From a virus: a DNA stretch of 29,962 bases. The notes below the pieces were generated by a model. That model saw nothing but the letters and a program-made list of their open reading frames with translations, searched no databases and was not told where the DNA came from. The stretch spans positions 1 to 29,962 of the IMG/VR virus record IMGVR_UViG_3300044678_001021; one strand, written 5' to 3'. The translations under genes were made by a program, and so were the position numbers. Of this stretch, positions 1,679-13,799 are shown in pieces (position 1 is the first letter of the stretch; the number at the start of each line of letters is the position of its first letter).

Positions 1679-2202
1679 GGTCGCCACCATGCTGGGCCGA
1701 CAATCAGCCGTGCGATGCTCGCGAGCTGTTCGACGTTGAGTGAGCCTGCGCCCGTCTCGCGATACGTGCTCAGCGCGCCGAACTCTACGCACCATTGCTC
1801 AGCACCCCAATCGAGTAACACCAGCGACAGCCCGCCCATCTCGTTGACGGTCTGCAGCGTGCGCCACTCAACATCTGCAGGACGCGTCGATGTCGGTGCG
1901 CCGAGAGCCTGTGCGAATGTCCACCGGTCCTGCGTGCACGTCTTGGCTTCGATTGCCACTGCGCGTCCACCGAGCAAACAGCCCACGAAATCGACAGACG
2001 CGCGACTCGCCCATGTTGCGAGAAACGCAGTGCGCCCGCGCGCGTCGGTGCGCGTCGCGCCCATGACGCGCGCCTCGGTAGGGACGCGGACGATATGCGC
2101 ACGGCGCTCTGCGCTCAGTTGCTGGTGATAGTTGTCGATGACGGTCTCCCACGCGTCGCCGCGTCGCTTCGATGCGAGACCTCTTGCCGTTGCTGTGGTC
2201 AT
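1675..2202 (-). CDS. RecU-like Holliday junction resolvase (PD-(D/E)xK nuclease)
   Basis: The 175-residue protein has the nuclease core expected of RecU-type resolvases: Glu19 in the first helix, SVDFVG with Asp71, and AIEAK with Glu85 and Lys87, followed by a Gln/His-poor helix and a GGLSLVLLDW strand (124-132) that resembles the GGI/ALLV strand of RecU. Such enzymes cut four-way junctions made during recombination and replication, which fits its neighbours RecT, SSB and helicase loader. It overlaps the upstream 127-aa gene and the downstream gene by ATGA. Other PD-(D/E)xK nucleases, such as VRR-type, remain possible. Confidence 0.7.
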   Translation of the reverse strand: MTTATARGLASKRRGDAWETVIDNYHQQLSAERRAHIVRVPTEARVMGATRTDARGRTAFLATWASRASVDFVGCLLGGRAVAIEAKTCTQDRWTFAQALGAPTSTRPADVEWRTLQTVNEMGGLSLVLLDWGAEQWCVEFGALSTYRETGAGSLNVEQLASIARLIVGPAWWRP

Positions 2203-2582
2203 GCCTCGGCGTTCTCCATAGCGTCACGCTCGACGCGAATCACGCGCAACGTGCGCTCATAGTCCCGACGCACCTGCGTTGCGCCCGTCACGCTCGACGC
2301 GTGCGCAATGGCCGACACAATGCGAGCGTCGAAGTCGACGAGCGCAAGTTGCATCGCCGCGCGCACGGTGGTCGACCTTGCGCTTTCGCCCTGCGTCGCA
2401 AGACTGTACGGCGTCCACACGCTGACGACTGCGCCGCGCTCGTCGATATGCGCCTCATAGTCGATTGCCGATGCGCCACGCTTGAACGACGCGCGCCACA
2501 CGATGCGCTCGTCATCAAGGTTCTTGAAGCCGAGACCGCGCGCTTCGGCGTGCAGCCTGAGACGTCGTTGCTCTGGCATCAT
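2199..2582 (-). CDS. Unknown protein in the replication operon
   Basis: The 127-residue product is soluble and charged, with mixed beta strands at about 26-60 (IVWRASFKR, AIDYEAHIDE) and an alpha-helical C-terminal half. It overlaps the DnaC-like gene (ATGA at 2582) and the RecU-like gene (ATGA at 2202). The first two codons are both ATG. The position between helicase loader and resolvase suggests a DNA metabolism role, but no motif is recognised. Confidence 0.7.
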   Translation of the reverse strand: MMPEQRRLRLHAEARGLGFKNLDDERIVWRASFKRGASAIDYEAHIDERGAVVSVWTPYSLATQGESARSTTVRAAMQLALVDFDARIVSAIAHASSVTGATQVRRDYERTLRVIRVERDAMENAEA

Positions 2583-3322
2583 GCCTGCCTCCCGTCAGTG
2601 CCGACGACATACGAATACGCAGTCGCCCCACGAATGCGCGACCACAAGCGGTCTCCGAGGTAGTCGGCGAGCGCTGCGTCTTCGAGATTGGTCGTCAGAC
2701 ATATCGTGCGCCTTGCGTCGAGTCGCTCTTGCACGACGAGCGCGAGTTGCTCGCGGGTCCAATCGGTCGCGTACTCGCAGCCGAGGTCATCAAGCCACAC
2801 GACTTGCGGGTCGACGATGCGCGCACGGATTGTGTGCTGGTCGATTGGTCGCCCCATTGCGTCACGGTATCGCGTGAGCCATTGGTTCCAGTGCACATAG
2901 CGCGCCGAGACGCCCCGATAAATCAGCCGCTGAACCGAGGCGCACGCGCGGGACGTCTTGTAGCTGCCGGGGTTGCCGACCATGCGCACGCCACGAGCGC
3001 CCTCGCTCCACGTGTCGACCCACTTGCGCGCACCGTCGCTGCAGTAGTCGGGACCATGATGCGCCAATGCGTAGGGTATGCGGGCAAGAGTCAGTCGCCA
3101 CGCGACTTTGATCACACGCGCGCAGCCGCACGCCACACCCGTCGACACGTCTCGTTCGTACCCGTTGCAGGCGGCGCATTTGTCGTGCGTCCATTTCGCC
3201 ACGCCGCCGTCGTTCTCGACGCGCATGTTCTCAAGCGTCAGCGCTGCGGGGCTGTCGTCATGCGTCTCGACCGTTGCCTGCTCAGACACGACGCCGCCGA
3301 GCATTTCGTCGATGCGCTTCAT
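2579..3322 (-). CDS. DnaC-like replicative helicase loader (AAA+ ATPase)
   Basis: The 247-residue protein has a Walker A loop VGNPGSYKTS (115-124, Lys122), Walker B VVWLDDLG (174-181, Asp178/Asp179), sensor-I-like TTN at 210-212, and DRLWSRI (224-230) that supplies arginines as in DnaC/IstB-type loaders. An N-terminal cysteine cluster (Cys49, Cys52, Cys65, Cys67) probably binds zinc; this occurs in phage DnaC homologues. It should deliver the host or phage hexameric helicase to the origin bound by the initiator two genes upstream. The ATG at 3322 overlaps the previous stop (ATGA). An in-frame extension to 3547 is open but lies within the upstream gene and is an artefact. Confidence 0.88.
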   Translation of the reverse strand: MKRIDEMLGGVVSEQATVETHDDSPAALTLENMRVENDGGVAKWTHDKCAACNGYERDVSTGVACGCARVIKVAWRLTLARIPYALAHHGPDYCSDGARKWVDTWSEGARGVRMVGNPGSYKTSRACASVQRLIYRGVSARYVHWNQWLTRYRDAMGRPIDQHTIRARIVDPQVVWLDDLGCEYATDWTREQLALVVQERLDARRTICLTTNLEDAALADYLGDRLWSRIRGATAYSYVVGTDGRQA

Positions 3323-3840
3323 TGCTGGTCTCCCGAGCCGTTGATGGTCGCCGACTGCAGGTATTGCACGATGCGCGTCGACGCATCGCGCAACATGTCG
3401 CCAATGGCGTCGGTGATGTGGTCGTTGCACTTGCCTCGATTGATGCCGAGCTGCCGCATCAAACTCAGCGCCATCGCAACCTGCGCCTCGGTCGCGTCGT
3501 GTAGCGGCACCGACTCGCCCGGCAATGTGCAGCCGATGCGCGACCAACGCCCCGTCGTGGTAGCGCTCGACACAAGCAGATGGGCGACCTTAGGGTCCTG
3601 CGTCGACAGGTCGGCGCCTCGAATGTCGTACTTCCACATTGACGGCGTCGTGTGGCTCACGAGCTTGTCGCCGAGCCAAACCTGCAAACACTTCGTCAGG
3701 TCGGGCGCGACGGGCGCAGGGCCGACACATTGACTCGCGCGCCAGCCGCGCATCGCGTCGAGCCACGCGTCGAACTCGGGCGCGTTGCGGTATGTGGTCG
3801 CGTGCGCATTGTCGACATAGATCGGGAAATACTCGCTCAT
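3319..3840 (-). CDS. Unknown protein between initiator and helicase loader
   Basis: The 173-residue product is soluble. The first half has aromatic residues and a Trp-rich stretch (WLDAMRGW at 26-33, QVWLGDKL near 53-60); the C-terminal part is a run of predicted helices. A strong Shine-Dalgarno (GGAGGT) sits seven bases before the ATG, and the stop overlaps the helicase loader start. It lies where some phages keep a second replication factor, but I see no motif to prove this. Confidence 0.7.
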   Translation of the reverse strand: MSEYFPIYVDNAHATTYRNAPEFDAWLDAMRGWRASQCVGPAPVAPDLTKCLQVWLGDKLVSHTTPSMWKYDIRGADLSTQDPKVAHLLVSSATTTGRWSRIGCTLPGESVPLHDATEAQVAMALSLMRQLGINRGKCNDHITDAIGDMLRDASTRIVQYLQSATINGSGDQQ

Positions 3841-3897
3841 ATTCAGACCTCCATGCGCGACACCCGTCGCGCGTCATTCGCCCGCAACCGCAGGCAA

Positions 3898-4806
3898 TTA
3901 GAAAACCATGCCGCCGTCGCCCTCGATACGTGCCCTCTGCGCGTCAGTCAAGTCTGCCTCTGCGACATAGCCCTCGCCGGGCACGCGAACCATTCGCGCG
4001 CCTTGCCGGTTTTTGGACGCCTCGACACCTGCCGCGTATACCGACGACACCTTTGCGCCGTTCGCCCGACCACGAGCCTGCTGGGCGCCTTTGCCGGGCT
4101 CGTGCACGCCGTCGCGCAGGATCATGCGCAACAGCGACAGGCTCGGGCCACCGCCGCCTGCGACCTCTGCCGCTCGGTCAATGCACCGGTTGACGTGGTC
4201 GGCACCCTTGTCGGCGACCGCCGACGTTAGCGCGTCGACATCGAGCGCACCGACGACGAGCGGCGCAGCACCTGACCGACCACGCAACGCGAGGCGCCAC
4301 CGCTCCAGCACGTGGGGCAACCCAGCGGGCAAGGTCGTCGCTGCGCGCGTAACGGCTGCGACAGCAGCCGTGTCCTGTACTGTCTCGTACTGTACTGTAC
4401 TGTAGGCCGTTACGTCGCGTTTCATGTCGTTACATTGCGTTACATCGGGCGGTGTAACGGGGTGTAACGTTTCAACCGTTACAGTCGCGCGCTTGGATTC
4501 GCGATGCTTACGCACCCGCTCGGCGCCGTTGTTGTCGCGTTGATAGGCCGACCAGTTCGCAACGACGACGTGCTCGCCGTCGTCGACCAGCAGACCCTCT
4601 TCGCGAAAGTGTGCGAGGGCTTCGGCCCATTCCTCAACCGACGGTCCCCACAGGTGCGCCATGATTCGCGGCGACAACTCGCGCGCATGAATGCGACCGT
4701 CGCCGATCTTCGCCCGGCACACGACCGCTGGCCACGCCCATGCGTGACCGCTGCCTGTGAGCCGCCCGTCCATCGGCAGGTCAATGTCGATTCTAACCCA
4801 CGCCAT
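3898..4806 (-). CDS. Replication initiator / replisome organizer (winged helix)
   Basis: The 302-residue protein begins MAWVRIDIDL and continues with an N-terminal winged-helix domain (about 1-95) ending in NWSAYQRDNNGAERVRKHRE, the signature end of phage replisome organizers (NW..YQ followed by an RxRxHR helix). These proteins bind the phage origin and recruit helicase and loader, as lambda O does. The linker (about residues 105-155) is encoded by a cluster of iteron-like repeats, so the origin is probably inside the gene. The start at 4806 is chosen because GGGAGG lies six bases upstream; an upstream GTG at 4821 is in frame but has no better signal. The C-terminal domain (about 160-302) probably contacts the loader. 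Confidence 0.82.
   Translation of the reverse strand: MAWVRIDIDLPMDGRLTGSGHAWAWPAVVCRAKIGDGRIHARELSPRIMAHLWGPSVEEWAEALAHFREEGLLVDDGEHVVVANWSAYQRDNNGAERVRKHRESKRATVTVETLHPVTPPDVTQCNDMKRDVTAYSTVQYETVQDTAAVAAVTRAATTLPAGLPHVLERWRLALRGRSGAAPLVVGALDVDALTSAVADKGADHVNRCIDRAAEVAGGGGPSLSLLRMILRDGVHEPGKGAQQARGRANGAKVSSVYAAGVEASKNRQGARMVRVPGEGYVAEADLTDAQRARIEGDGGMVF
4349..4483 (-). other. Probable phage replication origin: iterons inside the initiator gene
   Basis: Seven copies of CGTTAC or its complement GTAACG lie in 135 bases: GTAACG at 4349, 4454 and 4464, and CGTTAC at 4408, 4428, 4438 and 4477. The central four form a symmetric block: two CGTTACAT units ten bases apart face two TGTAACG units ten bases apart across an eight-base centre (4427-4469). 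Ten-base spacing puts sites on one DNA face. Location within an initiator gene copies the lambda O and lambda-like design. Adjacent is a TACTG tandem tract. Confidence 0.65.
4373..4404. repeat. Short tandem repeat of 5-base TACTG units
   Basis: Between 4373 and 4404 the plus strand repeats TGTAC/TACTG units with one interruption. The tract is less GC-rich than its surroundings, encodes AYSTVQYETVQ in the initiator, and lies between two of the iterons. It could be the duplex-opening region of the origin or a simple slippage repeat. Confidence 0.55.
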
Positions 4807-4818
4807 AACCACCTCCCA

Positions 4819-4870
4819 CACCGCCCCTGCGACGCGTCAGCATTGCACCGACTTTGTGCCGGGCGCGCAA
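4819..4870 (-). promoter_or_regulatory. Diverged copy of the cassette promoter and 5' hairpin, before the initiator gene
   Basis: On the minus strand TTGCGC (4865-4870), 17 bases, TGCAAT (4842-4847) form a plausible promoter overlapping the end of ssb. The leader then holds CGTCGC AGGG GCGGTG (4819-4834), the same loop and right arm as the hairpins of the four cassette promoters, with the left arm changed but still able to pair by G-U. GGGAGG follows before the ATG. The -10 is weak, so promoter activity is uncertain; the shared leader is clear. Confidence 0.5.
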
Positions 4871-4871
4871 G

Positions 4872-5303
4872 TCAGAACGGGATTGGGTCGTCGCCGAAGT
4901 CGGGCTCGCTTGACTGTTGCGGCTTCGCTGGCGCGTCGCCGACCCACGCCTGCTGAGCGCCGTCGTCGCGCTTGCCGCTGCCGATAAATGTGACCTTGTC
5001 GACCTTGACCTCGTATGCGACGCGGTTAGCACCCTGCTTGTCGGTGTACTCGCGCGATTCATACGAGCCCTCGACATACACGGTGCGGCCCTTTGTCAGG
5101 TGCTGCGCGCAGGTTTCGGCGAGCTTTCCCCAAACGTTGCACCGGTGCCACGTCGTGCGCTCGTTGCGCACGCCATCCTTGCCGCTCCACGTGTCGGTCG
5201 TTGCGACGCTCATCGACGCGACCGCTTGCCCGTTTTGCGTGTAGCGCAGTTCGGGCGTGGCGCCGAGGTTGCCGACGATGATGATTCGATTGACGCTGCT
5301 CAT
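4872..5303 (-). CDS. ssb: Single-stranded DNA-binding protein
   Basis: The 143-residue protein starts MSSVNRIIIVGNLGATPELRYT, the hallmark of bacterial-type SSB, and keeps the OB-fold pattern (SVATTDTWS, ERTTWHRCNVWGKLAE, KGRTVYVEGSYESREY) over about residues 1-110. The tail is short and ends in DFGDDPIPF, close to the DDDIPF tip that binds partner proteins. It protects single strands at the replication fork and works with RecT. The ATG overlaps the stop of the 208-aa gene (ATGA). Confidence 0.96.
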   Translation of the reverse strand: MSSVNRIIIVGNLGATPELRYTQNGQAVASMSVATTDTWSGKDGVRNERTTWHRCNVWGKLAETCAQHLTKGRTVYVEGSYESREYTDKQGANRVAYEVKVDKVTFIGSGKRDDGAQQAWVGDAPAKPQQSSEPDFGDDPIPF

Positions 5304-5926
5304 TGGTTATCTCCCTGCGCCCGGTGCACGGTGCGCGTTTGCTTCATGCCGAGCGCGGCTCGGTAGATGTCGACGACCGCGCGTGCGCGGGCGGCTGCTT
5401 CAATGCTGGCGGTCGGCGATGTGCTGACGATTGCGGCGAGCAACGCCGCTTCGAACGCATCAGGGACGCGCGCGCTTTCGAGCCACGCGACAACGTCTGA
5501 CGTGCGCACGCTGAGCCCGTCGCGCGTCATTCGCTCGGCGAGCTTTGATTGCCCGCCGCATTGCTCGACCGCCGTCGCGACGTGCGCGACCATGCGCCGC
5601 ACACTGTCGAGATGTGTGCGCGCAGCCTCGTAGACCATGCGCACGCCCGAGCCGCCGTTGTTGCCCGCCGTGCGTGCTCGCTGATAACGGTCGAACGCGT
5701 CACGCAGCGCGGGCATGCTGGCGCGCACCTCTTCAGTTGCCGTGCGCGTCGTCAACGGCAGGGACTGCTGCACCTCGACGGCGCGCGGTTCGGCGACCGC
5801 AGGTGGCGCACGATGCAACCCATGCTCGGCAAGGATTGCCGCATACAGCGACGATTGCTCAGCCTTTTGCAGCCCGAGCGCGTTCGCCCGCTCCAGTAGT
5901 TCAAGCGCCTTTTCGATGTTGCTCAT
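5300..5926 (-). CDS. Unknown protein with a YdaS/Cro-like helix-turn-helix
   Basis: The 208-residue product is largely helical. Residues 117-166 (CGGQSKLAERM, then DVVAWLESARVPDAF) follow the pattern of YdaS/Cro-type HTH domains, where a GGQ..LA start leads to a recognition helix and a W-L-x-x-x-R-V-P turn. The N-terminal part (1-40) is a short amphipathic segment and 65-115 another helical region. One base separates its ATG from the previous stop, and it overlaps ssb by ATGA. It may be a regulator or a replication accessory factor; the HTH assignment is by pattern. Confidence 0.65.
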   Translation of the reverse strand: MSNIEKALELLERANALGLQKAEQSSLYAAILAEHGLHRAPPAVAEPRAVEVQQSLPLTTRTATEEVRASMPALRDAFDRYQRARTAGNNGGSGVRMVYEAARTHLDSVRRMVAHVATAVEQCGGQSKLAERMTRDGLSVRTSDVVAWLESARVPDAFEAALLAAIVSTSPTASIEAAARARAVVDIYRAALGMKQTRTVHRAQGDNQ

Positions 5927-5927
5927 G

Positions 5928-6254
5928 TCAACGCCCTCTCAGTTGTTCAATGATTTGTTCGACGCGTGCTCGCGTCATGCGCGGCATGATGTCGACCCAC
6001 ATGCCACGCCGCTCCATCCAGACGCTGTAGACACTCCATCCGCCACGAAACCCCGGGTAGCCGTCCCACTGCTGGGCCGCTTCGCTCGGCGTGTGGTCGG
6101 CTTCGACATGTAGCTCGACTTCGTGCTCGCCGCCGAGGTCGAGCGAAACCTCATAGCCGAAAGGAACCCACGAGAAATAGGACGGTCGACCCGCTGCACA
6201 TAGCGCGTCGAGTCGCTTTGCGCGTCGGCGCAACTCTCGCTGCGTCGACGTCAT
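5928..6254 (-). CDS. Unknown phage protein
   Basis: The 108-residue product begins with a basic helix (TQRELRRRAKRLDALC), followed by beta-rich sequence (FGYEVSLDLGGEHEVELHVEA) with an acidic, His-containing strand pair, and an aromatic segment (WSVYSVWMERRGMWVDI). The ATG overlaps the previous stop (ATGA). The strongly patterned strands support a folded domain, but no family is recognised. Confidence 0.7.
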   Translation of the reverse strand: MTSTQRELRRRAKRLDALCAAGRPSYFSWVPFGYEVSLDLGGEHEVELHVEADHTPSEAAQQWDGYPGFRGGWSVYSVWMERRGMWVDIMPRMTRARVEQIIEQLRGR

Positions 6255-6694
6255 CGCGCACCGCCGTCAGGCATGCCGTCAGGGTCGGGCGTGCGAAAAT
6301 AATCAGGGCTGTTCCAGTCGGTCGGTGCCGGTGTCTGCACCTTGAACGGCTGCACGTTGCGCGTTTTCGCGACCCGCAACCGCTCGACACTTGGCACCGA
6401 CAGCACGCACCGGTCAGCCAGCCGGTCGAGGGCTTGCCGCTGCATCTCGATACGGTGCAGCGCGTCGGCTTGCATGTCCCAGCATGCTGCCGCCGAGTCT
6501 GCGTTGCGCACGCCTAGCTCGGCGACACACGACTGCGTTGCCGTCTCGATGCTGCGCCCGACCGTGTCGCCATTTTGCGAGCCGATGCCAAAGGTAACCG
6601 TCGCGCCGAGGCATGCGCCGAGGGTGATGCTGATCCAGTCGAAGCCGCGTGGCTCCTTGTCGCCGACGATGAGGTCAGACATGGTCGGCACCAT
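6251..6694 (-). CDS. Unknown protein with one transmembrane segment
   Basis: The 147-residue product has one likely transmembrane helix at about residues 19-38 (WISITLGACLGATVTFGIG), then a helical stretch with several cysteines (about 50-100) and a proline-rich C-terminus. The ATG at 6694 has AAGG five bases upstream and overlaps the preceding gene; the ATG at 6682, four codons later, is the alternative. The topology would place the long C-terminal part outside the cytoplasm. It sits among DNA metabolism genes; its role is unknown and spanin-like or host-takeover functions cannot be told apart. Confidence 0.62.
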   Translation of the reverse strand: MVPTMSDLIVGDKEPRGFDWISITLGACLGATVTFGIGSQNGDTVGRSIETATQSCVAELGVRNADSAAACWDMQADALHRIEMQRQALDRLADRCVLSVPSVERLRVAKTRNVQPFKVQTPAPTDWNSPDYFRTPDPDGMPDGGAR

Positions 6695-6935
6695 TCGCAC
6701 CTTGCGTCGTGCCCGACGCGTCGAACTTGTCGCGCAACTCTGCAAGCTCGGCGACCAGACGGTCACGCGTCGGGCCTTCGTCGGCTTGGTACAGCATGCC
6801 GATGATGACGCCAGCCTGAAACGTATACAGCGTGTGCGGCAATCCATGCGCACCGCGCGCCCACGCATCGAGCGCCGACTGAAACACGTCGCGCCGAAGC
6901 GACGAGACGCACTCGTACTTGTCGACGATCTCCAT
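6675..6935 (-). CDS. Unknown small protein downstream of recT
   Basis: The 86-residue product (MEIVDKYECV...) is mostly helical and ends in an acidic tail. GGAGGG lies just upstream and overlaps the end of the recT-like gene, whose stop is two bases before the ATG. The frame is open further upstream to 7007, but that part is inside recT and lacks a start signal. Its place between recT and ssb-linked genes suggests a recombination accessory role; no motif is recognised. Confidence 0.68.
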   Translation of the reverse strand: MEIVDKYECVSSLRRDVFQSALDAWARGAHGLPHTLYTFQAGVIIGMLYQADEGPTRDRLVAELAELRDKFDASGTTQGANGADHV

Positions 6936-6937
6936 GC

Positions 6938-7786
6938 TCAGCCCTCCCCGTGCTCGGTCGTGTAAACAACGCCCGCATCGAGCGCAGCCTCGCGCTCGTC
7001 GCGCCACGATTGAATTGCCGCACGACCACGCGCCGTCACCATAAAGTCGGCGGCGCTGCGCAGCCGAGCGGTCGGCGCGGTTGCGAGGTCGTGACCGCTG
7101 CGCGACAACTGCGACTCGACGAAGTCGGGCACGTCATCGCCGATGCAGAGCAACTCGCCGATAATGCTGCGCCGCTCGCCGTCGTCGCCGACAACAACCG
7201 CGACATCCTGCGACATGCCAACCGGCACAGACGCCTCGACGCGCACGTTCGGCACGGGCGCAGGCTCTTGACGCGGTGCCGACTCGATAGGCGTCGCGAG
7301 TTCGTCAGGGTCATAGATGCCAGCCACGAGGTCGGGATAGACAACCCGCGCAAGCGCCGACGCACACCGCGCCCGCAGCATTGCTTCGGGGTACGAGCGC
7401 CAGCCCTGCCCGCCCGTCAACCCCGCGCGCTGCGCCTGCTCGATGGTCCACGTCAGCGTGGTCGGCTCGGTGTCGCCCTTGCGTCGCGTCATGTACGTAG
7501 CGCGCTGCGCGGTGGTCTCAACGAGTCGCCATTCGACGCATTCGCCAGAACGACGGACGAGAGCGACGGTGGCGTCTGCGGCGAGCGTGACCTTGCCTTT
7601 GATTACGCTGAGCATGCGCATCGACTGCATGGGCGCCAACCCGAGTTCGCGCCCAGCCATCAACACGATGAGCGCGTCCTGTGGTCGACCGCGCAGAGCG
7701 TCAGGCGCAAGACTCGATGCCGCTGCAATGAGCGCAGTGCCGCCGAGAGGGTCGGCCTGCCGAACGATGTCGGTGTTGATGTTCAT
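6938..7786 (-). CDS. recT: RecT-like single-strand annealing protein
   Basis: The 282-residue product has the RecT-family pattern: a helical N-terminus ending in AGRELGLAPMQSMRMLSVIKGKVTLAADATVALVRRSG (about 45-82), YMTRRKGD and WTIEQAQRAGL (about 95-125), and WRSYPEAMLRARCASALARVVYPDLVAGIYDPDEL (about 130-165). RecT proteins anneal complementary strands and with SSB repair or restart replicating phage DNA. The ATG at 7786 overlaps the preceding stop (ATGA); an in-frame GTG at 7798 would add four residues. No partner exonuclease (RecE or YqaJ-type) is recognised in the window. The C-terminal third is variable and may bind SSB or other partners. Confidence 0.88.
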   Translation of the reverse strand: MNINTDIVRQADPLGGTALIAAASSLAPDALRGRPQDALIVLMAGRELGLAPMQSMRMLSVIKGKVTLAADATVALVRRSGECVEWRLVETTAQRATYMTRRKGDTEPTTLTWTIEQAQRAGLTGGQGWRSYPEAMLRARCASALARVVYPDLVAGIYDPDELATPIESAPRQEPAPVPNVRVEASVPVGMSQDVAVVVGDDGERRSIIGELLCIGDDVPDFVESQLSRSGHDLATAPTARLRSAADFMVTARGRAAIQSWRDEREAALDAGVVYTTEHGEG

Positions 7787-8031
7787 GCTGCACCACACTT
7801 CGGGCAGAACGCGAACACTCTGTCACCGTTCGGGTACTGCGCACTGACGAACCCGTAAAACTCCCAACCCGCCTTGATGCACAGCGCGCGCGCCGCGTTC
7901 TCGGCGTTCTCGTCTGCGCTGAGCGCGTAGTCGTAGGGCACCGAGATACGCCACGCCCCAGACGTTGCCGCCCAGCGCGAACCTCGCGTGTCGGTGGGTC
8001 CGCGATACTTCACCACAATCACCTGAGCCAT
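7783..8031 (-). CDS. Unknown conserved-type phage protein after hammerhead ribozyme A
   Basis: The 82-residue product starts MAQVIVVKYRGPTDTRGSRW, has a central VPYDYALSADENAENAARAL helix, and ends YPNGDRVFAFCPKC. This layout (KY.GPT.TRGSR, VPYDYAL, then an NGD-V-F end) is familiar from short early phage proteins without assigned function. The final CPKC could bind a metal. Its leader contains hammerhead ribozyme A, a second hairpin at 8047-8060, and AGGAG before the ATG. It overlaps recT by ATGA. Confidence 0.75.
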   Translation of the reverse strand: MAQVIVVKYRGPTDTRGSRWAATSGAWRISVPYDYALSADENAENAARALCIKAGWEFYGFVSAQYPNGDRVFAFCPKCGAA

Positions 8032-8046
8032 CTTTCTCTCCTGTGC

Positions 8047-8060
8047 GCTGCACCTGCAGC
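8047..8060 (-). promoter_or_regulatory. Leader hairpin downstream of ribozyme A
   Basis: On the minus strand GCTGC AGGT GCAGC forms a five-base-pair stem with an AGGT loop, followed by AGGAG and the ATG at 8031. After ribozyme cleavage this stem lies about 16 bases from the new 5' end, as the promoter-proximal hairpins lie near the transcript starts. The homologous hairpin after ribozyme B is at 9352-9367. Confidence 0.6.
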
Positions 8061-8072
8061 ACGTCGTTGCTT

Positions 8073-8121
8073 CCCAGACGCCTTGCGGCGTTTCGACTCG
8101 TGCCCGAGTCTCGTCAGTGGG
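8073..8121 (-). ncRNA. Hammerhead ribozyme A (type I)
   Basis: Read 5' to 3' on the minus strand: stem I strand CCCA, core CUGACGA, stem II GACUCG-GGCA-CGAGUC, core GAA, stem III ACGCC-GCAA-GGCGU, then C and stem I strand UGGG. All invariant hammerhead bases are present (C3 U4 G5 A6 N G8 A9, G12 A13 A14, A15.1-U16.1, C17). Cleavage is expected between 8077 and 8076. Both closed loops are on stems II and III, so the form is type I. It begins immediately after the TAA stop of the 73-aa gene. Confidence 0.92.
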
Positions 8122-8343
8122 TTAGTAGATGTTCCTCCAGTGCCACTGTATGCGGTAGACGATGCAGGCGCCGCAGTGCATCTGAACCGTCACTACGTTC
8201 CGCTCGTGAGCGCACAGCGCGCGCAGCGCTTCGACAAGCTCATGGTTCTCGCTGTTCGACTTCTGAAGCTCGGTCGCTGTACCTGCCACGATGAGGCTTC
8301 CGGTTTCTACGGTGACCACTGCGAGCACGATTTGGTCCGCCAT
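8122..8343 (-). CDS. Unknown small protein, cassette 4
   Basis: The 73-residue product starts MADQIVLAVVTVETGSLIVAG, has a charged central helix (about 25-50) and ends VQMHCGACIVYRIQWHWRNIY with a CGAC pair and an aromatic C-terminus. The ATG at 8343 follows AGGAG in a leader with the shared hairpin, under promoter copy 1. The stop codon directly abuts hammerhead ribozyme A. The frame is open to 8553, but only by reading through the promoter. Function unknown; a short gene with its own strong promoter suits early host takeover or counter-defence. Confidence 0.78.
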   Translation of the reverse strand: MADQIVLAVVTVETGSLIVAGTATELQKSNSENHELVEALRALCAHERNVVTVQMHCGACIVYRIQWHWRNIY

Positions 8344-8357
8344 CTTCTGTCTCCTGT

Positions 8358-8375
8358 GCACCGCCCCTGCGGTGC
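8358..8375 (-). promoter_or_regulatory. 5' leader hairpin, cassette 4
   Basis: The leader forms GCACCGC AGGG GCGGTGC, seven base pairs with an AGGG loop, about 10 bases from the predicted transcript start and shortly before ACAGGAG. Identical stems occur in the other cassettes. It may protect the 5' end from decay or set ribosome access. Confidence 0.7.
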
Positions 8376-8390
8376 GTCGTTGATGTGGTG

Positions 8391-8445
8391 ACTCTATCAC
8401 GCATCGCGCACGATGCAACATCTTTTTTCGATGCCCGCGCTTTTT
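8391..8445 (-). promoter_or_regulatory. Cassette promoter copy 1
   Basis: TTGCAT (8413-8418), 16 bases, TAGAGT (8391-8396) on the minus strand. Two A-tracts lie upstream (about 8423-8428 and 8441-8445), placed like proximal and distal UP-element subsites. Only the promoter-side half of the GATGTTGCA palindrome is kept, so operator binding should be weaker here than in copy 2. The distal A-tract overlaps the stop codon of the 66-aa gene. Confidence 0.82.
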
Positions 8446-8644
8446 AGGCGTCGGCGAGGTCGTCGCACAGGACCGCGTCGACGAACCACTCGGCGTCTTC
8501 TGCGGTGATGAACATTGCCCAGCCCGCGAGGTCGGCGCGCAACTGCGTCGCAATCTTGCGGGCGCTGACGGTGCGCGACATCGAACGGATACGGCGGCAG
8601 AGCTTCTCGTTGTTCATCAGGCGGGCAATCGTCGTGCTGTTCAT
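8444..8644 (-). CDS. Unknown small protein, cassette 3
   Basis: The 66-residue product (MNSTTIARLMNNEKLCRRIR...) has a basic N-terminal half and an acidic C-terminus (DAEWFVDAVLCDDLADA). It is probably all helical. The ATG at 8644 follows the shared leader, where the usual AGGAG is changed to AGGGG. It is the only cassette gene not followed by a ribozyme; its TAA runs into promoter copy 1. The frame is open to 8740 through the promoter, which is not used. Function unknown. Confidence 0.75.
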   Translation of the reverse strand: MNSTTIARLMNNEKLCRRIRSMSRTVSARKIATQLRADLAGWAMFITAEDAEWFVDAVLCDDLADA

Positions 8645-8658
8645 CGTCGGTCCCCTGT

Positions 8659-8676
8659 GCACCGCCCCTGCGGTGC
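8659..8676 (-). promoter_or_regulatory. 5' leader hairpin, cassette 3
   Basis: GCACCGC AGGG GCGGTGC, seven base pairs, identical to the cassette 4 hairpin, between promoter copy 2 and the ribosome binding site of the 66-aa gene. Confidence 0.7.
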
Positions 8677-8691
8677 GTCGTTGATGAAGTG

Positions 8692-8750
8692 ACCTTACCA
8701 CACTCAGCGCACGATGCAACATCTTTTTTCGATGTTGCACGCTTTTCTTT
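8692..8750 (-). promoter_or_regulatory. Cassette promoter copy 2 with A-tracts
   Basis: TTGCAT (8714-8719), 16 bases, TAAGGT (8692-8697) on the minus strand, with A-tracts at about 8724-8729 and 8743-8750 upstream. The -35 region overlaps the complete palindrome at 8715-8739. It starts just after the stop of the HTH gene and drives the 66-aa gene. Confidence 0.85.
8715..8739. promoter_or_regulatory. Palindromic operator candidate, copy 2
   Basis: TGCAACATC, seven bases (an A-tract), GATGTTGCA: a perfect nine-base inverted repeat overlapping the -35 box. A dimeric HTH protein bound here should block RNA polymerase. The HTH gene at 8750-8956 ends eleven bases away. Confidence 0.7.
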
Positions 8751-8956
8751 TATACGCCGAACGCGCGCAGCAAGTCGACGACCGAGACGCCTGCAATCTC
8801 AGCGAGTTGCTTGACGTGTCGAGAGCTTGGCAACTTGCCGCCAGCCCAGCGGGTGATCGTCACCGAGGTGACTCCCAGCGTTGAGGCTAGCTGCGAGCGT
8901 CCCTGAGCGTTTGCGGCAGCGCAGTGGACGATGATGCTTGGCGTGAGGGTTTGCAC
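8750..8956 (-). CDS. Small XRE/Cro-like HTH regulator
   Basis: The 68-residue protein is essentially one HTH domain: RSQLASTLGVTSVTITRWAGG at about 20-40 is a textbook XRE helix-turn-helix, followed by a helix pair (VKQLAEIAGVSVVDLLRAF). The GTG at 8956 follows the previous TAA directly and has CGGAG six bases upstream. It is the last gene of cassette 2 and lies beside the palindromes in promoter copies 2 and 4, so it probably represses the cassette promoters as Cro or an Aca protein would. The link to that palindrome is inference. Confidence 0.85.
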   Translation of the reverse strand: MQTLTPSIIVHCAAANAQGRSQLASTLGVTSVTITRWAGGKLPSSRHVKQLAEIAGVSVVDLLRAFGV

Positions 8957-9340
8957 TTAGTACTCCGAGGAAAGCATGATGGTTTGATTGAAGTCTGTGA
9001 GGTCGCCGACAACGTAGATGTCGACGCTCTGAAGCGGGAAGTCCGTGTACGGGATGCGCTGCTGAGCGAGCACCAAGCCGTTGCCGTCGGTGCACTTCGC
9101 GACGGCGCCACTGCCGCGTTTGTTGCGGGTCAGCGTCCAACTCTGGAACATCTGCACACCGTGGCGCCGACGGACGCCCCATTGGTGCGAGATCACAAGG
9201 TCGACGAGCCACCAGCACTCGGCATTGTGGGCGAGCAGTTTGACGCCATCTGTGATCCACGCTCGCCCGTAGGCGTGGCGCTCTTCCGAACCGCCGCACA
9301 GAGCCAGAATCGTCCCGAGTTGTTGCGCATCCATCATCAT
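8957..9340 (-). CDS. DUF6876-like protein of unknown function
   Basis: The 127-residue product has the pattern I know from DUF6876: TDGVKLLAHNAECWWLVDLVISHQ (about 30-53), FQSWTLTRN (65-73), CTDGNGLVLAQQRIPYTDFPL (83-103) and an end of IMLSSEY. Proteins of this kind are found in bacteria, phages and plasmids without known activity. Three in-frame ATGs start the gene; AGGAG is four bases before the first at 9340. The leader contains hammerhead ribozyme B and a hairpin. The frame is open upstream to 9562 through the ribozyme, but that is not coding. The TAA is followed at once by the HTH gene. Confidence 0.8.
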   Translation of the reverse strand: MMMDAQQLGTILALCGGSEERHAYGRAWITDGVKLLAHNAECWWLVDLVISHQWGVRRRHGVQMFQSWTLTRNKRGSGAVAKCTDGNGLVLAQQRIPYTDFPLQSVDIYVVGDLTDFNQTIMLSSEY

Positions 9341-9351
9341 CGCTCTCCTGT

Positions 9352-9367
9352 CGCTGCACCTGCAGCG
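9352..9367 (-). promoter_or_regulatory. Leader hairpin downstream of ribozyme B
   Basis: CGCTGC AGGT GCAGCG, six base pairs with an AGGT loop, between the ribozyme B cleavage site and the ribosome binding site of the DUF6876-like gene. It matches the hairpin after ribozyme A. Confidence 0.6.
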
Positions 9368-9381
9368 TGTCGTTGTTGCTT

Positions 9382-9430
9382 CCCAGACGCCTCGCGGCGT
9401 TTCGACTCTCGCCAGAGTCTCGTCAGTGGG
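9382..9430 (-). ncRNA. Hammerhead ribozyme B (type I)
   Basis: CCCA, CUGACGA, stem II GACUCU-GGCG-AGAGUC, GAA, stem III ACGCC-GCGA-GGCGU, C, UGGG, reading the minus strand. Compared with ribozyme A, stem II has a G-C to U-A compensatory change, and both stem III loops are GNRA. Cleavage is expected between 9386 and 9385. The UGA stop codon of the 65-aa gene (9423-9425) is part of the catalytic core. Confidence 0.92.
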
Positions 9431-9620
9431 CGAGCGGCCGGCACAGGTGGCACGATTGCGGCCGGCGCTGCGTTCGGCCGGATTCCCACCGAACGATAAA
9501 CGATCGCGGTCCTGCGGCCGTAACGAGACCATAAAGCACGGTCCCATAAAGCCCGTCGTCATACCACGTGGACACCTGCTGCCCGACGTTGAATCGTTGC
9601 TCTGAGTTGTTCGCCTTCAT
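9423..9620 (-). CDS. Unknown small protein, cassette 2
   Basis: The 65-residue product (MKANNSEQRFNVGQQVSTWYDD...) has alternating strands and glycines (VGQQVSTW, LYGTVLYG, RSFIVRWESG) like a small SH3-type barrel, then a C-terminal CHLC pair. Its ATG at 9620 lies in the shared leader under promoter copy 3. Its UGA stop is shared with the core of hammerhead ribozyme B, so gene and ribozyme overlap. The barrel idea is by pattern only and the function is unknown. Confidence 0.75.
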   Translation of the reverse strand: MKANNSEQRFNVGQQVSTWYDDGLYGTVLYGLVTAAGPRSFIVRWESGRTQRRPQSCHLCRPLAH

Positions 9621-9634
9621 TGTCTCTGCCTTTC

Positions 9635-9650
9635 CACCGCCCCTGCGGTG
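9635..9650 (-). promoter_or_regulatory. 5' leader hairpin, cassette 2
   Basis: CACCGC AGGG GCGGTG, six base pairs, in the leader between promoter copy 3 and GGAAAGGCAGAG before the ATG at 9620. Confidence 0.68.
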
Positions 9651-9666
9651 CGTCGTTGATGAGGTG

Positions 9667-9722
9667 ACCTTATCACGCCGTCGTAATAACGCAACATCTT
9701 TTTTTCAACGTGCGCTCTTTTT
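9667..9722 (-). promoter_or_regulatory. Cassette promoter copy 3
   Basis: TTGCGT (9689-9694), 16 bases, TAAGGT (9667-9672) on the minus strand, with A-tracts at about 9699-9705 and 9718-9722. The palindrome is imperfect: the promoter-side half GATGTTGC is kept and the far half is changed. It lies 19 bases after ribozyme C and drives the 65-aa, DUF6876-like and HTH genes. Confidence 0.83.
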
Positions 9723-9741
9723 GTTCGGCGGTCGTTTGCAT

Positions 9742-9790
9742 CCCAGACGCCTCTCGGCGTTTCGCCTACTGCCGCAGGCTCGTCAGTGGG
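9742..9790 (-). ncRNA. Hammerhead ribozyme C (type I)
   Basis: CCCA, CUGACGA, stem II GCCUGC-GGCA-GUAGGC (one G-U pair), GAA, stem III ACGCC-GAGA-GGCGU, C, UGGG on the minus strand. Stem II differs from copies A and B but still pairs. Stem I can extend past an internal loop through GGUUG (9798-9802) with CGACC (9730-9734). Cleavage is expected between 9746 and 9745. It follows the 81-aa gene by six bases and has no gene directly after it; promoter copy 3 comes next. Confidence 0.9.
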
Positions 9791-9796
9791 TTTGGC

Positions 9797-10042
9797 TCAA
9801 CCTGCGGCAAGCGCCACGTCGACGACGTATGCGTAAGCAATGGAGATGATTTGCCGAGTCTCGACCGCGCCGAGGTCAAAGAAACCGTCGTTGCTCAGGT
9901 GCGCATGGACAGCGCGAGCAACCGCGTCGCGACCATTGCCACGCTTGCTCGCGTCGTCATGCACAACGCACAACTGCGCCATGCGGCTCTCGCTTGTCAT
10001 GATGCTCTGAAGCGCGGCGACGAATTGATTGCTGTTGTTCAT
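9797..10042 (-). CDS. Unknown small protein, cassette 1
   Basis: The 81-residue product (MNNSNQFVAALQSIMTSESR...) is probably helical, with a hydrophobic C-terminus (ISIAYAYVVDVALAAG) that could be a short membrane or packing helix. The ATG at 10042 lies in the shared leader under promoter copy 4, with GGAAAGGCAGAG as ribosome binding region. The UGA is six bases before ribozyme C and falls within its outer stem. No family is recognised. Confidence 0.75.
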   Translation of the reverse strand: MNNSNQFVAALQSIMTSESRMAQLCVVHDDASKRGNGRDAVARAVHAHLSNDGFFDLGAVETRQIISIAYAYVVDVALAAG

Positions 10043-10056
10043 TGTCTCTGCCTTTC

Positions 10057-10072
10057 CACCGCCCCTGCGGTG
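10057..10072 (-). promoter_or_regulatory. 5' leader hairpin, cassette 1
   Basis: CACCGC AGGG GCGGTG, six base pairs, identical to the cassette 2 leader hairpin, before the ribosome binding site of the 81-aa gene. Confidence 0.68.
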
Positions 10073-10088
10073 CGTCGTTGATGAGGTG

Positions 10089-10144
10089 ACCTTATCACGC
10101 CGTCGTAATAACGCAACATCTTTTTTTCATGTTGCGCGCTTTTT
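10089..10144 (-). promoter_or_regulatory. Cassette promoter copy 4, with palindrome
   Basis: TTGCGT (10111-10116), 16 bases, TAAGGT (10089-10094) on the minus strand. The palindrome CGCAACAT (10112-10119) and ATGTTGCG (10129-10136) has eight-base arms around an A-tract, and a second A-tract is at 10140-10144. From -10 to the proximal A-tract the sequence is the same as copy 3. It is the first promoter after the tail genes and begins the cassette region. Confidence 0.85.
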
Positions 10145-10167: not shown

Positions 10168-13158
10168 TCAGCCAATGACCTGCGAGCGGTCGAGGTATGC
10201 CCATGCTCGGGCGGTCGCACTTGCCGCGCCGTAGCTCGTTTGGTCGATGTCGTCGCCCGCCGATAGGCTGTGCGCGCCGTCAAGCGTCACGACGTCGCCG
10301 ACGATGCTGACGACCACGCGCTCGACCGACACGCCCCAGTCGCCAGCAGGGATGCACCGCACGACGTCGCCCGCTGCGAAGTAGTCGAGCGACGCGCGTC
10401 CGAGGTCGATCTGTACCTCGCCTGTGCGCGGCTCGGTTGCGAGCGTGTACGTGTTCGCCTCGACGCGCACGGCGGTCGGCGACGTGACCGACAGCACGCG
10501 CAGCGACGGTGACCAGCCCGTCGACGCCGAGCCCGATGACGCAAGCGTCAACGACACGCGACCGCCGAGCCAGTCGCGCTCGACGCCGAGCACGCGACAC
10601 GCCTGCGCGACGATGCCGATGCTGCCATTGATGCCGACCGCACTTGAACACGTCAACGTCACGACGTCGCCGAGTCCGACCTCTAGCGCGCCGACGTGGT
10701 CGACCGACACGGCGAGTTGATAGCGCACGCGCGGCAGCCCGGCGCGGCGTCGCAAGTGCTGCACGATTGGCAGGATGGCAACGGCGACGTCGGCGGGGTC
10801 GCCCTCTAGTTTGATGCCGCGCAAGTCGAGCACCATTTGCTCGCCCGCGTCACCGCCCGCTGCGCCGACCGCATCGCTGTCGACGTATGTCGTGATGCGC
10901 TGCGCGACGCCCGCAGCATCGTGGTCGCTTTCGAGCCGATAGGCGCGCACGACGCGACCGTCAACCGACGACGAGCACTGACCGTCGGCGATGATGTCGG
11001 CATCAGTGATGCTCATCACGCTTTCAACCTCGGGCGCGGGTCCGAGGCTTGTCAACGTCAACCGCTGCCGACCATCAACCCAGCGCTGCACGACCGCACC
11101 GCCGAGCAGGGTCAACACGTCGCGCAGCGAATCGTCGACGGTTTTCGTCGGGTCAATGTCGAAGTCGGAACCCTGCAGCGCGTCGGGTATCGCGAACGAA
11201 AGGAAGGCCGACTCGGCGACGTCGCTCGCGTCGAGGTTCGCCCCGTATGCGAGCACGTCATGCGTGCCATTCGTACCGGTGCCGACGCCCGACTCTAGCA
11301 ACCGCAAAAGCAACTCGGTCGGCGACACGCCCAGCGACCGCGCGCGCGGCGTCACCGTGACCGGTTCGCCGTGGTCGAGCGCGTATAGGTCGCCACCACC
11401 CTGCGCGCCCGTCACGGTCAGCAGGTAGCCGATAGCCTCGCCGGTGTCGGGGTCGAGCGCGGGCGTCGATGCCGACACCAGAACGTCAAACTCGCCGGTC
11501 GAGAAGTTGACCTCGCCGCCCGCGATGCGCATGACCTGCGGCCCACCGCCCGCAAACACGTTGTCGACGACCAGCAAGGCGGGCTCGACGCTGTGAAACC
11601 ACGCGAGCGCAGGGCCACGGCATGGAATGCGCGCGCGTGCCTCTGCAGTTGCCTCGCTTATTGCCTCGCGCCGTATGCCAACGCTCTGCGCTTCGATGTC
11701 GACGAATGGGCGCGCATCGTCTGGCGCGCGATAGTCGACGCCGACGCAAACGCGCGACGATGACGGCACCCAGCGCAGCGCGAGCGTTGACCCGCTCATG
11801 CCGGGTTGAATCAAGCCCGCGCGCCATAGCCAACCCGCGCCATCTTGCGATAACTCGACTGACGCCCATCGGCCGAGCTGACCCTGATTCGTTATCACGC
11901 GCCAACGGTCGCACGCATTCCACGTCGCATTCCACGCGACTGCCGCTGGAAGCGCGCCGCTGATAACCTGCAGCGCGCGGTCAGGCCAGCGCACCAATTC
12001 GGCCGAGCCTGCGGGGTCGACGAGCGACAACGTGCAAGCCTCTTCAATGTACGGCGTCGTCAGGTCGCCGAGGTCGCCGACGACTGGGAGCGCGATAGGG
12101 TCGACGTCGAGCCGGTCGTTGCCGATGTAACCTGCGACGCGGTGCACGATGCGCAGCGTACCATTCCATAGCTCGACGTCACCTGCGCGCGGGTGTCCAA
12201 GCGGCAGTGACACGTCAAATATGCGCTCATGTGCGAATCGCGCGGCGGGAGTAGTTTCAGCGTTGGCGCCGTTCTCGTCATACGCAGCCGAAACCGCTGC
12301 GCCGCGTTCCCAGATTTGATCGAGCCGAATCTCCGAACCGACACGAGGCGTGAAGTAGTGCCAGCCGCGCACAAGCGTCGTCGACACCGCGCCCGACGCA
12401 AACCGCTGCCGCATCAACGCCGACATCGGCGCGATGCGCAGGGTCAGCGTCATGCCGTCGCCCGACAACTCAGGCTCGCGGTCGAGCACGCCGCGCCAAA
12501 TCTCAGCATACCCGCCGACGACCACACCATCGACAACGGGCGCTGCGTGAATCGTCGCGCGACGACCGCGCCAGAATGTCGGCTCGGATGTGACGACGGG
12601 CTGCTGTCCACGCGTCGGCTGGTATAGGTGCCGGGCGATGCGCGTGCCCGCTGCGCCCCGTGCGCACGTCTGCAGTTGCGTGCCCACAGTCGCGACCGCA
12701 TACACCGACTCAAGCCCGATGTGATAGAGCCCTGCTGGCCACGCGCCGACATCGTCGACGACGTCGATGTCAGTTGGCCCCAACTCGTGCGCGACGGTTC
12801 CCGCAATCTTCGTGCGCAGCGTCGCGCCCGCTGGGCCGATGCGACGAAGCGCGCGCACAGGGTCAGCGGTGTATGTGCTACCCGTCACGGTCGCCGCCGA
12901 TATAGGCGCATCGCGCGCAGCAAGTTGCACCGTGACCGGCGATTGCGTGACCGAGCAGTCGACCTCGTCAATGCTCGACGATTCAGGGCCGACCGTCAGC
13001 ACGGCTTGAATGTCGCGATATGTCAGCGCGCCACCGGTGCCCGGTATTCCGTCGACGGTCGGCGCGGGTCCAGCAAAGTACCGGTCGCTCAGCCCGGCAA
13101 TCGTAACCACGACTGCAAGCCGCCGACCGCGCAACGCGTCGAGAACAGGGATGGTCAA
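10168..13158 (-). CDS. Large tail protein, probable tail tip/fibre component
   Basis: The 996-residue product is the largest in the window and is rich in beta-forming Val, Thr, Gly and Asp residues throughout, as expected for a tail tip, hub or fibre. It follows three other tail genes after the tape measure, where tip and receptor-binding proteins are encoded. The start is a TTG at 13158: it overlaps the previous stop (TTGA) and has GGGGAG six bases upstream. An ATG at 13206 in frame would overlap the previous gene by 52 bases and lacks such a signal. No catalytic motif is recognised. The C-terminus is followed by the cassette region. Confidence 0.78.
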   Translation of the reverse strand: MTIPVLDALRGRRLAVVVTIAGLSDRYFAGPAPTVDGIPGTGGALTYRDIQAVLTVGPESSSIDEVDCSVTQSPVTVQLAARDAPISAATVTGSTYTADPVRALRRIGPAGATLRTKIAGTVAHELGPTDIDVVDDVGAWPAGLYHIGLESVYAVATVGTQLQTCARGAAGTRIARHLYQPTRGQQPVVTSEPTFWRGRRATIHAAPVVDGVVVGGYAEIWRGVLDREPELSGDGMTLTLRIAPMSALMRQRFASGAVSTTLVRGWHYFTPRVGSEIRLDQIWERGAAVSAAYDENGANAETTPAARFAHERIFDVSLPLGHPRAGDVELWNGTLRIVHRVAGYIGNDRLDVDPIALPVVGDLGDLTTPYIEEACTLSLVDPAGSAELVRWPDRALQVISGALPAAVAWNATWNACDRWRVITNQGQLGRWASVELSQDGAGWLWRAGLIQPGMSGSTLALRWVPSSSRVCVGVDYRAPDDARPFVDIEAQSVGIRREAISEATAEARARIPCRGPALAWFHSVEPALLVVDNVFAGGGPQVMRIAGGEVNFSTGEFDVLVSASTPALDPDTGEAIGYLLTVTGAQGGGDLYALDHGEPVTVTPRARSLGVSPTELLLRLLESGVGTGTNGTHDVLAYGANLDASDVAESAFLSFAIPDALQGSDFDIDPTKTVDDSLRDVLTLLGGAVVQRWVDGRQRLTLTSLGPAPEVESVMSITDADIIADGQCSSSVDGRVVRAYRLESDHDAAGVAQRITTYVDSDAVGAAGGDAGEQMVLDLRGIKLEGDPADVAVAILPIVQHLRRRAGLPRVRYQLAVSVDHVGALEVGLGDVVTLTCSSAVGINGSIGIVAQACRVLGVERDWLGGRVSLTLASSGSASTGWSPSLRVLSVTSPTAVRVEANTYTLATEPRTGEVQIDLGRASLDYFAAGDVVRCIPAGDWGVSVERVVVSIVGDVVTLDGAHSLSAGDDIDQTSYGAASATARAWAYLDRSQVIG

Positions 13159-13799
13159 AGCACGTCTCCCCAAACCGGCAAATATGCGACCGCATGAATG
13201 CGGCATGACGACGTCACGACGCGCAGCACAGCGACCGACCCTCGCACGTCGCCGCTCGTGGTCGACGTTTCAAGCGCGCGCGGGCTCGACGGCGTGGCGC
13301 CAACGGCAAGCCCCGCGCGACGCACGTCGCCAGTGACTTGCCAACGCGGCTCGATGCGTCGAGTATTTGCCTGCGATAGTCGCGGCAATTCCACCGCCGC
13401 AAGCGTGCCCTCTGCGCGCGACCATACGCAGCCGATGTCGACGACGTTACCCGCAAGGTCGTCGAGCGTCACCGTGACAGACGGCGCACCGCTGCCGCCC
13501 GTTTCCATAGCGCTGACGAGGACCGCCAGCTGAATTGCCGAGTCAAGCGGCCCAATCGTGACCGGGCAAAACGCCGCTTGGCTGATTCCGTCAGTCGCGT
13601 GGACGTAGCCCTGCAGGTTGTCGGGATCCGTCTCGACGCGTTGCGCGACGTGCACCGTGTACCAATGCCGCGCATATATTCCGGCGACGGTGTTGATTGC
13701 GCCCGCATGACCGGCGAGCGTTTGCCCGACGACGGGACGCGCGCTGAACTGTTCAGCCGCTGTCGGCACCTTGCGCCGTGCGCCGTAAGGCACGCTCAC
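13155..13799 (-). CDS. Tail-associated virion protein, unknown role
   Basis: The 214-residue product has a helical N-terminus and a beta-rich body (VTVTLDDLAGNVVDIGCVW near the middle). The GTG at 13799 is chosen because it overlaps the preceding stop (GTGA) and has GGAG six bases upstream; the frame is open to 13910 without a signal. It is coupled to the large tip protein gene by TTGA, so the two are probably made in proportion. Function is inferred from place only. Confidence 0.7.
   Translation of the reverse strand: MSVPYGARRKVPTAAEQFSARPVVGQTLAGHAGAINTVAGIYARHWYTVHVAQRVETDPDNLQGYVHATDGISQAAFCPVTIGPLDSAIQLAVLVSAMETGGSGAPSVTVTLDDLAGNVVDIGCVWSRAEGTLAAVELPRLSQANTRRIEPRWQVTGDVRRAGLAVGATPSSPRALETSTTSGDVRGSVAVLRVVTSSCRIHAVAYLPVWGDVL

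Follow-up and report, generated by a model that had tools for sequence, protein, structure and literature searches.

The early mRNA of phage T7 is cut between the early genes at RNase III sites, which leave structured ends, and phage morons are small additional genes that sit among conserved genes and bring their own promoter. Here we describe a region of the IMG/VR virus record IMGVR_UViG_3300044678_001021 that resembles both in part, as it contains small genes with candidate promoters of their own and type I hammerhead ribozymes at gene ends. The whole stretch of DNA analysed, 29,962 bases with all assigned genes on the minus strand, is called the window. As at the RNase III sites, the predicted cuts are intergenic, but T7 needs a host enzyme and the end chemistry is different. 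As in morons, the small genes have own promoters (by comparison only) and are present in some relatives and absent from others, but they lack a terminator of their own; a hammerhead stands in its place, and transcription is expected to continue.

Clustered phage hammerheads are known. In the available passages of Perreault et al. (2011; PMC3088659), prophage hammerheads lying in close proximity flank single genes or short blocks of genes, cleavage is shown in vitro (three arrays) and in E. coli (one array), and long phage RNAs are proposed to be cut to operon- or gene-length mRNAs. As far as these passages go, the window shares with the prophage arrays the clustering at gene borders and the proposed processing of transcripts, whereas a promoter and leader hairpin in each cassette, or a shared leader, do not figure in them. 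The window also differs in being a virus record, with a tight hammerhead pattern that is nearly absent from bacterial genomes (one match). Hence the original prediction was too broad in knowing of no described array of ribozymes between genes. The cassette formed by a promoter, leader, gene, ribozyme and second leader, the shared covarying leader, and the geometry of the stop codon were not found described in open-licence papers, and the cassette with its shared leader appears to be new. A 2017 review (PMC6155905) regards the roles of prokaryotic hammerheads as still unsettled and points out their association with phages.

The engineered insulator RiboJ (Lou et al. 2012; PMC6206723) is a hammerhead followed by a 23-nt hairpin and then by the ribosome binding site (RBS), and insulated genes make more mRNA and protein. 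At HHR1 and HHR2, two of the three hammerheads of the window, the order of elements is the same, and cleavage is likewise predicted to create a uniform 5' leader. Unlike RiboJ, the hammerheads of the window are natural, belong to the phage type I and are situated between two genes rather than between a promoter and a gene; the hairpin sequence also differs. Another repeated element, SAS/ESAS of the cluster K mycobacteriophages (PMC3203893), occurs upstream of many start sites, often together with an inverted repeat, and its authors found little support for pairing of the ESAS RNA. The leader element of the window is also repeated near gene starts, but its stem covaries. We conclude that the ribozymes probably cut the operon RNA between genes and thereby give the downstream genes a leader of the promoter type, similar to RiboJ.

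Hammerheads in the window

The pattern CTGANGA..CGAAA..TCTGGG has exactly three matches in the window, all on the minus strand (8073, 9382 and 9742; HHR1, HHR2 and HHR3, respectively), and none in 100 dinucleotide shuffles. A descriptor that checks the stems yields the same three loci and no others, with no strict matches in 300 shuffled windows. The type I core (CUGANGA, GAA, the A-U closing pair, C at H17) is complete in all three, and it is surrounded by three helices, open at stem I and with loops on stems II and III. Stem I is CCCA/TGGG, and stem III is ACGCC-GNRA-GGCGT. Stem II varies (GACTCG/CGAGTC, GACTCT/AGAGTC, GCCTGC/GTAGGC, with the loop GGCA or GGCG), but the pairing is kept. When each hammerhead is folded alone, the minimum-energy structure is the full hammerhead.

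A covariance model was built from 40 diverse viral hammerheads, the window family being left out. Every pair is formed in every sequence of this alignment, with the covariation of 0.481 versus 0.105 in shuffled data. HHR1–3 score 60.8–64.5 bits (E about 1e-18), while the next-best score in the window is 7.8 bits. Thus the pattern, the descriptor, folding and the model scores agree on three complete type I hammerheads, as had been proposed from the sequence, and the predicted cut positions (Table 1) are the same as those suggested earlier.

Rfam reports no hammerhead in the window at the gathering cut-off. Below it, HHR1 has 19.1 bits (RF00163, gathering score 34), and HHR2 and HHR3 are assigned to RF00008; the range for the three is 18–20 bits against thresholds of 34 or 48.5, the gathering score being a curated cut-off and not a biological definition. 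We do not use Rfam as an arbiter here, because it also misses all type I hammerheads in ten other descriptor-positive viral loci. The original prediction named as fatal sub-threshold scores combined with a lack of homologues in related phages: the scores are indeed low, but homologues exist.

Promoters and the shared leader

A blind repeat finder recovered four copies of a 112-nt promoter-leader repeat (8340, 8641, 9616, 10038), six copies of a 33-nt leader, and the three hammerheads. The putative promoters have the -35 box TTGCGT or TTGCAT, a 16-nt spacer, the -10 box TAAGGT or TAGAGT, and an upstream A-tract. No promoter of the window reached 9/12 in a scan with the E. coli consensus; the calls rest on the repetition and on TTGACA-17-TARGGT found in relatives ahead of the same leader. 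With this reservation, the four matching promoters with A-tracts and a common leader hairpin are recovered as first described, and three of the four promoter-proximal small genes (gA, gB, gF) end at a hammerhead.

At P1 and P3 (10111–10150 and 8714–8745), the A-tract is enclosed by the inverted repeat GCAACAT..A-tract..ATGTTGC, which extends into the -35 box. This repeat might serve as an operator, possibly one bound by the helix-turn-helix (HTH) protein gD.

The standard leader consists of CAACGAC, a hairpin of 6–7 bp and a Shine-Dalgarno (SD) sequence. All 15 aligned leaders, be they promoter-made, ribozyme-made or, in one case, internal, form a 6-bp stem, and three pairs are changed on both sides. 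The hairpin starts about 14–18 nt past the predicted cut at HHR1 and HHR2. The product of HHR3 would start at 9745 and run into P2, with about 95 nt between the predicted cut and the following hairpin; hence the expectation that each cleavage would leave a hairpin near the 5' end holds for HHR1 and HHR2 but not for HHR3. The order of ribozyme, hairpin and RBS ahead of a gene is likewise seen at HHR1, HHR2 and six hammerheads of relatives, with HHR3 as the exception. The leader hairpin lies 3' of all eight gene-proximal hammerheads of the window lineage. Elsewhere it follows 8 of 123, compared to about 4% for shuffled tails, and we reject it as a general partner of viral hammerheads.

An alternative is that the repeats matter mainly as DNA, serving as homology linkers at gene borders for the swapping of small genes, with the cutting being incidental. 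The blocks of P1 and P2 share 95% identity across 112 nt, and cassettes have been gained, lost and moved among relatives (see below), both of which fit this explanation. However, stem II and the leader hairpins have altered bases in both arms with the pairing kept, whereas linkers would keep sequence and not structure; moreover, hammerheads of unrelated phages show the same geometry. We consider the linker role unlikely.

Proposed processing of the operon RNA

The unit may be described as an accessory gene cassette: a promoter, the standard leader and a single small gene, with a type I hammerhead in the usual place of a terminator. Since no terminator-like sites were found on the coding strand, RNA polymerase would read on into the next gene, and the nascent RNA would cut itself at the hammerhead. 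The upstream message would then end in hammerhead stems II and III. The downstream message would start with 5'-UGGGA(A/U)GCAAC..., followed by a short spacer, the promoter-type hairpin and the SD sequence. The predicted ends are 5'-OH and 2',3'-cyclic phosphate; we infer cleavage in the cell with this chemistry, as well as altered stability or translation.

Two genes, downstream of HHR1 and HHR2, are predicted to receive the standard leader. With ribozyme-made and promoter-made 5' ends standardised in this way, a promoter-bearing small gene could be added without fusing messages. Separation of messages and setting of their stability, as at the T7 RNase III sites, was the purpose suggested originally and is plausible, but the evidence seems to point more specifically to a shared leader for the downstream genes, as in RiboJ.

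Several observations weigh against this description. The gE cassette has no hammerhead, and HHR3 precedes promoter P2 and not a leader hairpin. Stem I has only 4 bp and is lost from the minimum-energy structure in 150-nt context folds, although stems II and III of HHR1 and HHR2 persist there. At HHR3, stem II is also lost in the context fold, and gA contains a competing complement. The contact between loop II and the stem I tail, enriched across viral hammerheads (mean run 3.17 versus 2.52), is only 2–3 bp in the window family. Finally, in three relatives (L125, L129, L133) the RecT leader hairpin is kept and the hammerhead is missing, hence the ribozyme is dispensable at the RecT junction.

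Some genes are flanked by two or more hammerheads, and such pairs might cut and religate, producing circular RNAs of the intervening gene. Perreault et al. searched for circular or spliced RNAs without detecting any (PMC3088659), and the conserved leaders and SD sequences argue for linear mRNA, making circles extremely improbable.

Cassettes in related phages

About a dozen close loci were gathered by RecT searching. One of them, L124, has the cassette three times, each formed by a promoter, leader hairpin, small gene, hammerhead, leader hairpin and the next gene; the modular anatomy proposed for the window is strengthened by this locus. The putative promoters are TTGACA-17-TARGGT or near variants, the leader CATCAACGA(C/G)G is as in the window, and GATGCAACGAC with the hairpin and the SD sequence is situated ahead of RecT and two other genes. 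L130, L132 and L166 have one hammerhead-hairpin unit each.

The six hammerheads of the relatives have covariance scores of 52–58 bits. None of the nine family hammerheads has lost an invariant position of the core, and the pairing is retained, which is hard to reconcile with decayed or inactive relics. The weak stem I, the loss of the hammerhead in some relatives and the fact that cleavage is only predicted are consistent with relics, but on balance we regard this explanation as very improbable. In L125 and L133, another hairpin (CCACCGAGCGGTGG or CCCACTAAGCGGTGG; about 7940–8001) is seen near the position of the missing hammerhead before RecT.

The small genes of the cassettes are mutually unrelated, with the exception of L124_s3 and L132_s (E 7e-24), which both end in a hammerhead but have different locations. 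In L166, whose capsid is 98% identical to that of the window, a single promoter cassette adjoins the tail-side gene, versus two in the window; the small gene in it is another one, and gC is reduced to a remnant. Thus cassettes have been gained or lost locally between relatives, and the parts, their repetition, covariation and conservation are observed directly in the compared sequences. As the hairpins covary and the small genes are mostly unrelated, the comparison indicates that the RNA shell is conserved while the protein contents are exchanged.

Viral hammerheads at large

One strict pattern has matches in at least 118 viral stretches, versus a single match in bacterial and archaeal genomes (257 Gb); the TGGGANGC-tail subtype was not found in bacterial genomes. 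We considered 132 non-redundant viral hammerheads, which are not all viral hammerheads, since the collection pattern fixes stem I. The median distance from the cut to the start codon is 32 nt (quartiles 28–39). The downstream genes are diverse (RecT, RecE, anti-restriction, ribonucleotide reductase, and mostly families without known function), and hence a common function for them was rejected. In the viral contigs L034 and L049, five type I hammerheads each are situated between successive genes.

An upstream open frame of at least 50 codons precedes 124 of the hammerheads. The stop codon lies 7–13 nt before the core in 80 of these and coincides with the core UGA in 25, although the core UGA necessarily ends one of three frames; together this makes 105 of 124. 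The opposite-strand control has only four stops in the same range. When each upstream protein family is counted once, 73 of 91 show this geometry (the families derive from stop-to-stop frames and are approximate).

As the stop codon abuts the core or sits in it, a terminating ribosome might mask the ribozyme, so that cleavage would report upstream translation. At HHR3, a 9-nt stretch in the last gA codons (TGCCGCAGG) could pair with stem II and its loop (9742–9815), so that HHR3 may be active only while gA is covered by a ribosome, which could remove this competing helix. On the other hand, compact packing of the genome alone could explain the spacing equally well, and there is no overall enrichment of competing helices (5.44 versus 5.38 expected), so that competing helices were rejected as a general switch. 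Ribosome gating is therefore rather unlikely.

Used as a query against named phages, HHR3 pointed to phages of Streptomyces. In the genome parts analysed, Rfam identifies type II hammerheads situated between small genes in R4 (eight), phiELB20 (nine) and Spernnie (eight). The R4 hammerhead at L180:5260 directly follows a promoter-like sequence. Several hammerheads overlap annotated gene starts; the starts may be misannotated. Like the hammerheads of the window, these lie amid a run of small genes, at 8–9 per phage, but they are permuted, are called by Rfam and belong to another phage lineage.

Genome map

The minus strand of the window carries the terminase, portal, protease and major capsid genes, followed by a gene of 1012 aa (10168–13206) and the cassette region. 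Downstream of the latter are genes for RecT-like, SSB, DnaC-like, Holliday-junction resolvase and endolysin proteins. Among named phages, the capsid and the 1012-aa protein have no match, and RecT and terminase have distant matches only. The order of the cassettes is P1-hairpin-gA-HHR3; P2-hairpin-gB-HHR2-hairpin-gC-gD; P3-hairpin-gE; P4-hairpin-gF-HHR1-hairpin-gG-RecT. Nothing convincing was found in PHROGs or Pfam for the function of gA, gB, gE and gF.

Table 1. Features of the cassette region in minus-strand order (window coordinates), and hammerhead arrays of Streptomyces phages
Feature	Position	Strand	Evidence
Putative promoter P1 (TTGCGT-16-TAAGGT), A-tract upstream	10089–10116	-	repeat finder, relatives
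Leader hairpin after P1 (CACCGC-AGGG-GCGGTG)	10057–10072	-	repeat, covariation
gA, 81 aa, no known family	9797–10042	-	
HHR3, type I hammerhead, predicted cut 9746/9745, just upstream of P2	9742–9790	-	64.5 bits
Putative promoter P2 (TTGCGT-16-TAAGGT)	9667–9694	-	repeat finder, relatives
Leader hairpin after P2	9635–9650	-	repeat
gB, 65 aa, stop codon shared with the core UGA of HHR2	9423–9620	-	
HHR2, type I hammerhead, predicted cut 9386/9385	9382–9430	-	60.8 bits
Leader hairpin after HHR2 (CGCTGC-AGGT-GCAGCG), then SD	9352–9367	-	folding, covariation
gC, 127 aa, DUF6876	8957–9340	-	E 6.8e-28
gD, 68 aa, Cro/CI-like HTH	8750–8956	-	
Putative promoter P3 (TTGCAT-16-TAAGGT)	8692–8719	-	repeat finder, relatives
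Leader hairpin after P3	8660–8675	-	repeat
gE, 66 aa, promoter-proximal gene without hammerhead	8444–8644	-	
Putative promoter P4 (TTGCAT-16-TAGAGT)	8391–8418	-	repeat finder, relatives
Leader hairpin after P4	8359–8374	-	repeat
gF, 73 aa, stop codon UAA directly next to stem I of HHR1	8122–8343	-	
HHR1, type I hammerhead, predicted cut 8077/8076	8073–8121	-	62.9 bits
Leader hairpin after HHR1 (GTGCTGC-AGGT-GCAGCGC), then SD	8045–8062	-	folding, covariation
gG, 82 aa, phrog_3199; then overlapping RecT-like gene	7783–8031	-	
Type II hammerhead arrays, cultivated Streptomyces phages: R4 (L180, NC_019414); phiELB20 (L179); Spernnie (L178)	1611–6928 (L180)		

Implications

A broader proposal is that accessory cassettes ending in a ribozyme have arisen in phages as nature's equivalent of RiboJ, in which promoter-born and ribozyme-born mRNAs share a covarying leader, and that, with the hammerhead fused to the preceding stop codon across many viruses, self-cleavage is a general device for dividing operons. 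We consider the case for it evenly balanced. The locus offers a concrete role for phage hammerheads, that of ribozymes that would divide operons and standardise leaders, in a natural parallel to an engineered insulator, and the cultivated Streptomyces phages offer a laboratory test of the idea of hammerhead processing.

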